33,075 nt of DNA from Spirochaetota bacterium (GTDB taxonomy: Bacteria; Spirochaetota; Spirochaetia; SPDA01; B32-G16): the NCBI GenBank assembly GCA_003645645.1, contig QNBH01000011.1, forward strand, positions 1-33,075, written 5' to 3'. A program made the position numbers and the translations under genes. A model generated the notes under the pieces. That model made no database searches, was not told where the DNA came from, and saw nothing but the letters and a program-made list of their open reading frames with translations. Shown here piece after piece: positions 81 to 9,777 of the stretch; position 1 is the first letter of the stretch, and every line of letters starts with the position of its first letter.

Positions 81-179
81 TATGCTCCGAAAGAAGGTAG
101 AAGGGCTTAAGCCCGTCTCTTAACCTGTCTTTCGATCGGTGGACCGCCACCTATGGTGGTAGCCTTCTTTCGTAGTAAA
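81..179 (+). repeat. 99-bp structured intergenic repeat, copy 1 (closing stem plus three hairpins)
   Basis: Same length and about 83% identical (17 differences in 99) to 9679-9777. Closing stem CGAAAGAAGG (88-97)/CCTTCTTTCG (163-172); hairpins AGAaGGGC-TTAA-GCCCgTCT, ACCtGTC-TTTC-GATcGGT, GCCACC-TAT-GGTGGT. Confidence 0.85.
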
Positions 180-380
180 AAATTTAAGGGACCTTGGTAT
201 CTCAACGGAAAGAAGCTCGGAGTAGTTAAAAGGACTCTGCTTAAGTTTTTCAGTATCAAGTATCTTCAGGTTAACGACATCCCCGAGAACTCGGTGGAAT
301 TTTTCTCTTTCGGGAAGTGGGAAGGTATTAACAAGAATATTTAAACAGTAGTCTATAAAATATATTTGGAGTCAAGCCTA

Positions 381-9568: not shown

Positions 9569-9596
9569 ATTATATTTTATTAAAGAGGAAAGTAAA
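9569..9596 (-). promoter_or_regulatory. Candidate promoter for tmk
   Basis: Minus strand TATAAT (9574-9569) with TTTACT (9596-9591), 16-nt spacer. Confidence 0.4.
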
Positions 9597-9601
9597 CGGC
9601 C

Positions 9602-9628
9602 GCTTGCAAAGCCTAAGGCTTTGCAAGC
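9602..9628. repeat. Perfect 12-bp inverted repeat (hairpin)
   Basis: GCTTGCAAAGCC - TAA - GGCTTTGCAAGC. Confidence 0.9.
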
Positions 9629-9638
9629 CGTGCAAGGG

Positions 9639-9671
9639 CTAACTAATTTCTGCTTTGCAGAAATTAGTTAG
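9639..9671. repeat. Perfect 15-bp inverted repeat (hairpin)
   Basis: CTAACTAATTTCTGC - TTT - GCAGAAATTAGTTAG. Confidence 0.92.
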
Positions 9672-9678
9672 GTGGTTG

Positions 9679-9777
9679 TATGCTCCGGAAGAAAGTAGAA
9701 GGGCTTAAGCCCGTCTTTCAACCGATTTTTTAACCGGTGGACTATCACCGTAGGTGGTCGCCTTCTTTCGTAGTAAA
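9679..9777 (+). repeat. 99-bp structured intergenic repeat, copy 2
   Basis: Aligns without gaps to 81-179; same closing stem, GGGCTTAAGCCC hairpin and two further hairpins. Confidence 0.85.

Follow-up and report, generated by a model that had tools for sequence, protein, structure and literature searches.

A gene-less element of about 186 nt with two multi-hairpin domains and GTAAA boundaries in a Spirochaetota genome, probably of the PATE-like kind

A 99-nt repeat found in a Spirochaetota draft genome (assembly GCA_003645645.1; the window analysed was positions 1 to 33,075 of contig QNBH01000011.1, 33,075 nt in length) was the right half of a gene-less mobile element of about 186 nt, which ran from GTAAA to GTAAA and was composed of two consecutive multi-hairpin domains. 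The element is, with a probability of about 0.72, non-autonomous, PATE-like, and mobilised by a Y1 transposase of the IS200/IS605 type; this reading rests on four marks of IS200/IS605 elements (subterminal hairpins, insertion beside a five-base target that is fixed, and the lack of both a terminal inverted repeat and any further target duplication) and on a related family with an end resembling the right end of the resident IS200. Among the three options offered in the preliminary description (a structured RNA, a PATE of the IS200/IS605 type or MITE, and a protein-binding repeat), the PATE was thus the best supported, and the structured RNA gained no support. As for the class of the enzyme and the single-stranded intermediate, both are what we infer.

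Extent, copies, and variants of the element

The preliminary description had reported two copies of a 99-nt unit (81-179 and 9679-9777) that aligned without gaps and differed at 17 positions. This alignment was reproduced, with a similarity well beyond chance (E about 4e-23), and both copies folded as had been described (minimum free energy -42.5 and -32.6 kcal/mol; z -6.0 and -3.2). The start of the unit and the size of the family had to be revised: (i) once the copies were aligned with their flanks, the majority extended another 87 nt upstream of the start at 81/9679, this part being a second hairpin domain, and copy 2 was a complete element (Table 1); and (ii) the genome search that had been proposed as a check returned dozens of copies rather than two. 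Over the host draft genome (3.98 Mb in 380 contigs), the right-end pattern gave 104 matches at <=2 mismatches, 53 on one contig strand and 51 on the other, versus 10 for the reversed-pattern control, which puts some 95 right ends above the background; 62 complete elements were recognised.

The element consensus was GTAAA-CAACCACC-three hairpins-GGTGGTTG-TATGC or TTTGC-TCC-GAAAGAAGG-three hairpins-CCTTCTTTC-GTA-GTAAA, 186 to 190 nt long, and in its folds each end carried subterminal hairpins. Alignments of 24 and 19 copies represented the two main subfamilies, which differed chiefly in the right half; the centre was TATGC in subfamily 1 and TTTGC in subfamily 2. The left half was closed in the consensus by the stem CAACCACC/GGTGGTTG, which was weaker in copy 2 (CGGCCGC/GGTGGTTG); the left-half hairpins of copy 2 lay at about 9604-9626, 9626-9641, and 9640-9670. 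The 80 nt upstream of copy 1 were unrelated to the left half of the element. Downstream of copy 1, window positions 180-345 held an open frame (KKFKGPWYLNGKK...) with no Pfam match; this frame may belong to a gene that the insertion of copy 1 interrupted at the contig edge.

Table 1. Features of the two element copies in the window
Feature	Coordinates	Strand	Basis
Copy 1, truncated: right half only, central TATGC to right-end GTAAA	81..179	+	Alignment with about 40 genomic copies
Copy 1 right-end GTAAA (TTTAC on minus), proposed cleavage/target site	175..179	+	Conserved right end GTAGTAAA; empty-site logic from other copies
Copy 2, complete 186-nt element of subfamily 1, left to right GTAAA	9592..9777	+	Alignment; boundaries from flank analysis
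Copy 2 left GTAAA (TTTAC on minus)	9592..9596	+	Common to 51/62 complete copies; outside flanks unrelated
Copy 2 left half, multi-hairpin domain	9597..9678	+	Sequence; consensus fold
Copy 2 central TATGC, candidate guide, partly complementary to both terminal GTAAA	9679..9683	+	Direct reading; comparison with L216; bias at base -1
Copy 2 right half, second multi-hairpin domain	9679..9777	+	Fold; alignment

Some further copies had extra internal hairpins or were short derivatives of 38-85 nt; in L005, L011, L158, and L190, an extra hairpin CTGTGGAATAAGC...GATTATTCCACAG was located inside the left half. Copies were dispersed singly and not arrayed, which would make integron attC sites an improbable reading. 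At one locus (L145), a right-half copy abutted the 3' end of a tRNA-Ser gene within a cluster of five tRNA genes, and CTCCG was common to the copy and the tRNA end. Among 398 genomes of the class, diverged matches were found only in G094 and G006, which belonged to two other families, and the plasmid, phage, and viral collections searched gave no matches to the element. A 23-mer scan of GTDB genomes yielded one match, in a gene of a Fibrobacter MAG, and it was judged a chance match.

Target site and empty sites

The terminal site was GTAAA at the left end of 51 and at the right end of 54 of the 62 complete copies, and the sites deviating from it included GCAAA, still complementary to TTTGC. 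The base before the left terminal site was A or G in 55/62 (background 54%; p 5e-9), A alone accounting for 38 of the 62 copies (p 8e-12). No target duplication was detected beyond GTAAA: across the 62 complete elements, flank-to-flank identity was about equal to that of shuffled flanks for k=1-9.

Site-specific insertion and a strict 5-bp target duplication are inseparable from the shared GTAAA by itself. A DDE-type MITE making a strict GTAAA duplication would likewise account for the GTAAA on either side of the insert and for its single occurrence at each reconstructed empty site; however, the left end CAACCACC and the reverse complement of the right end CTACGAAAG differed, so the element lacked a terminal inverted repeat, and, given the above counts, almost the same 5-mer would need to have been duplicated each time. 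Such a MITE is very unlikely.

Three kinds of empty site were reconstructed: (i) at L174, where the element was inserted in cbiD, keeping one GTAAA joined the frames as CAVAGVR-KDSGDDPDDTHG, and the two flanks matched positions 1-56 and 59-254 of the CbiD profile; (ii) at L157, inserted in an NMT1-like/histidine-kinase gene, the joined frame read NPEL-VKRFTHATLKGW and its upstream part matched NMT1; and (iii) in another high-copy repeat, the sequence at the insertion point was about TTTAGGTAAA-AAAACAAAATC in more than 20 uninterrupted copies; a variant of the present element (L007) and a related element (L208) occupied exactly this junction, and in L183/L185 the left end entered there. Since these empty sites carried a native GTAAA, the target has GTAAA before insertion.

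The repeat in (iii) was itself a multi-hairpin repeat (CATATCGCAATC...TGTG...AATAGCATAA) with at least 40 copies (L222-L251, e.g., L224 and L226); read directly, it had the same layout as the present element, with CATA at its termini and TGTG at its centre, and it was into its GTAAA that the present elements inserted. A right-half copy was also found in a Sua5/YrdC gene (L017); its reading as an intron was rejected because the middle of the domain was missing as well, and the gene was for the same reason taken as a pseudogene.

Stem variation and the active strand

The stem changes between the two window copies were read from the fold in a register slightly different from that of the hand alignment: pairing was kept at 10/90 (A-T to G.T), 49/54 (C-G to T-A), 65/78 and 67/76 (C-G to T.G), and 66/77 (G.T to A-T), and it was broken at 16/84, 47/56, and 69/74. 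The claim that sequence changes follow the fold was then examined on more copies. Within subfamily 1 (24 copies) it failed, pairing being 93.7% versus 93.7% for shuffled columns and the covariation being equalled by 279/500 shuffles. Across subfamilies it held, mostly for one hairpin: the left half covaried (0/500 shuffles as high), mainly at a single hairpin in which A-T and G-C replaced each other with no wobble intermediates. Such cross-subfamily covariation is better explained by inheritance of different founder hairpins, together with mobility that depends on hairpins, than by an RNA maintained after insertion.

The plus strand had been proposed as the functional one on account of G.U pairs. 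Stem sites with A.C (equal to G.T on the minus strand) were at least as frequent as those with G.T (27 versus 19 and 10 versus 8), giving no plus-strand wobble excess. Placement was likewise even: 51 copies were assigned by simple ORF calling, and those beside tandem genes comprised 16 sense and 16 antisense; of the rest, 14 lay between divergent genes and 5 between convergent ones. No replication-strand bias of element copies was seen by GC skew, which counts against the PATE-like reading. The comparison with Rfam, suggested for recognition of an RNA class, gave no match at gathering or permissive thresholds. A functional plus-strand RNA was thus not supported. The wider proposal, that the repeat is a structured RNA with a function, as a small RNA or an mRNA element, and is repeated by happenstance, would agree with the strong folding and with the left-half covariation across subfamilies, but subfamily 1 lacked covariation, sense and antisense placement were equal, and copies sat inside genes that they disrupted; with Rfam empty as well, we regard this proposal as highly improbable.

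The ends of the element were further compared with those of resident IS200 copies and of family C (L203, L204, L207, L208, and L214), a related family of shorter elements (about 110 nt) with CCACC hairpins. One family C end was like the right end of resident IS200 (GCAAAGCCACCTGC..GCAGG..TTTAC; permutation p from <0.0005 to 0.03), and the left end of family C read TTTAC...AAAG-hairpin on the minus strand; the elements of about 186 nt (family A) had ends only weakly similar to the IS200 right end (permutation p 0 to 0.054). Taken on the minus strand, the present element follows one TTTAC and has another as its end. From the comparison of family C with IS200 ends, the active strand is probably minus, not plus.

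Candidate transposases, guides, and known systems

The TnpA of IS200/IS605 cuts folded single-stranded ends beside a tetra- or pentanucleotide (PMC7290912); the TTAC of IS608 is recognised via a guide, AAAG, at the foot of the hairpin (PMC5934647). For the present element, an IS200/IS605-type Y1 transposase, a single-tyrosine HUH enzyme, would most likely fold one strand of each end, cut beside TTTAC, which is GTAAA read on the minus strand, excise a single-stranded circle, and insert it beside another TTTAC, with the outcome of one GTAAA per end and no further duplication; the central TTTGC and the AAAG at the hairpin foot would act as guides. On this reading, copies like that at 81-179 are truncated remnants, and inserted copies mostly decay, with no selection for pairing.

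No intact transposase gene with the ends of the element was found in the host draft genome, and a search with a 28-mer hairpin pattern for more IS200-type ends gave nothing. Of the two resident IS200 copies, L151 was disrupted near its N-terminus and had HIR at the HUH site, and L154 was truncated; similarity between the two stopped right after TTTACTC. Two other Y1 genes, L152 (341 aa) and L153 (170 aa; 1318-1830), looked intact and kept the motifs HYH and HFH while the IS200 copies were broken, and they had the look of RAYT (REP-associated Y1 transposase) genes. These genes, the GTAG inside the right end of the element, and a 158-aa Y1 protein similar to L153 in G094 (locus L253, 1354-1830), where a diverged copy of the element also occurred, would suit a REP-like element that a RAYT, and not an IS200 TnpA, had spread. 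Against this, no matching element ends were found in the loci around L152 and L153, the G094 protein had QIH at its HUH site, and the element measured about 186 nt with only 5/51 copies between convergent genes, in comparison with REPs, which are 20-40 nt long and mostly found where the neighbouring genes are unidirectional or convergent (PMC3733652); a RAYT origin is accordingly considered unlikely.

Under the IS200/IS605 reading, two candidate guides were compared. Pairing of the central TTTGC is possible with the GTAAA at either end, and in L216, a diverged copy from a different family of this class, both ends were ATAAA and the centre was TTTGT, the change being present on both sides. The TATGC of subfamily 1 mismatched GTAAA at one position, yet its target was the same GTAAA, so central pairing is not strict. 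At the hairpin foot, TTTAC was accompanied by AAAG in both family C and IS200, and in L216 AAAG was unchanged despite the changed target. A one-guide, two-domain architecture, in which a single centre would pair in turn with the cleavage sites of both ends and with the target and would set specificity, is tentatively put forward and rather doubtful; its possible examples are GTAAA/TTTGC in the host, ATAAA/TTTGT in the other family, and CATA/TGTG in the second host repeat.

The present reading would explain a high-copy repeat that would otherwise pass for a candidate RNA, and the case illustrates that compensatory changes taken from just two copies can mislead. The copies supplied empty and occupied sites at the DNA level for the study of target choice, and they formed a natural set of elements for comparing target sequence with internal guide.

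Comparison was also made with three groups of known systems. Free-standing IS605 stem-loops of Borrelia plasmids (PMC2775950) are similar in being IS605-type hairpins dispersed without a transposase, but they are single and some are kept at the RNA level by lipoprotein genes, whereas the present element had no RNA-level conservation within its subfamily. GTAG REPs, REPINs, and RAYTs (PMC3733652, PMC3116915) share high-copy palindromes, genomic Y1 transposases, and a GTAG by the right end, but the present element was about 186 nt with fixed GTAAA boundaries, did not flank Y1 genes, and was not concentrated at gene 3' ends. PATEs and IS200-IS605 ends (PMC5934647, PMC7290912) differ in that the present element had multi-hairpin ends instead of single hairpins, one partly complementary centre common to both ends, and no intact partner transposase seen; they agree with it in having no terminal inverted repeat, no duplication beyond the shared site, no genes, hairpins at both ends, and insertion beside a fixed short sequence (TTTAC here; TTAC in IS608), and the TTAC/AAAG pair of IS608 (PMC5934647) has its likeness in the minus-read left end of family C.
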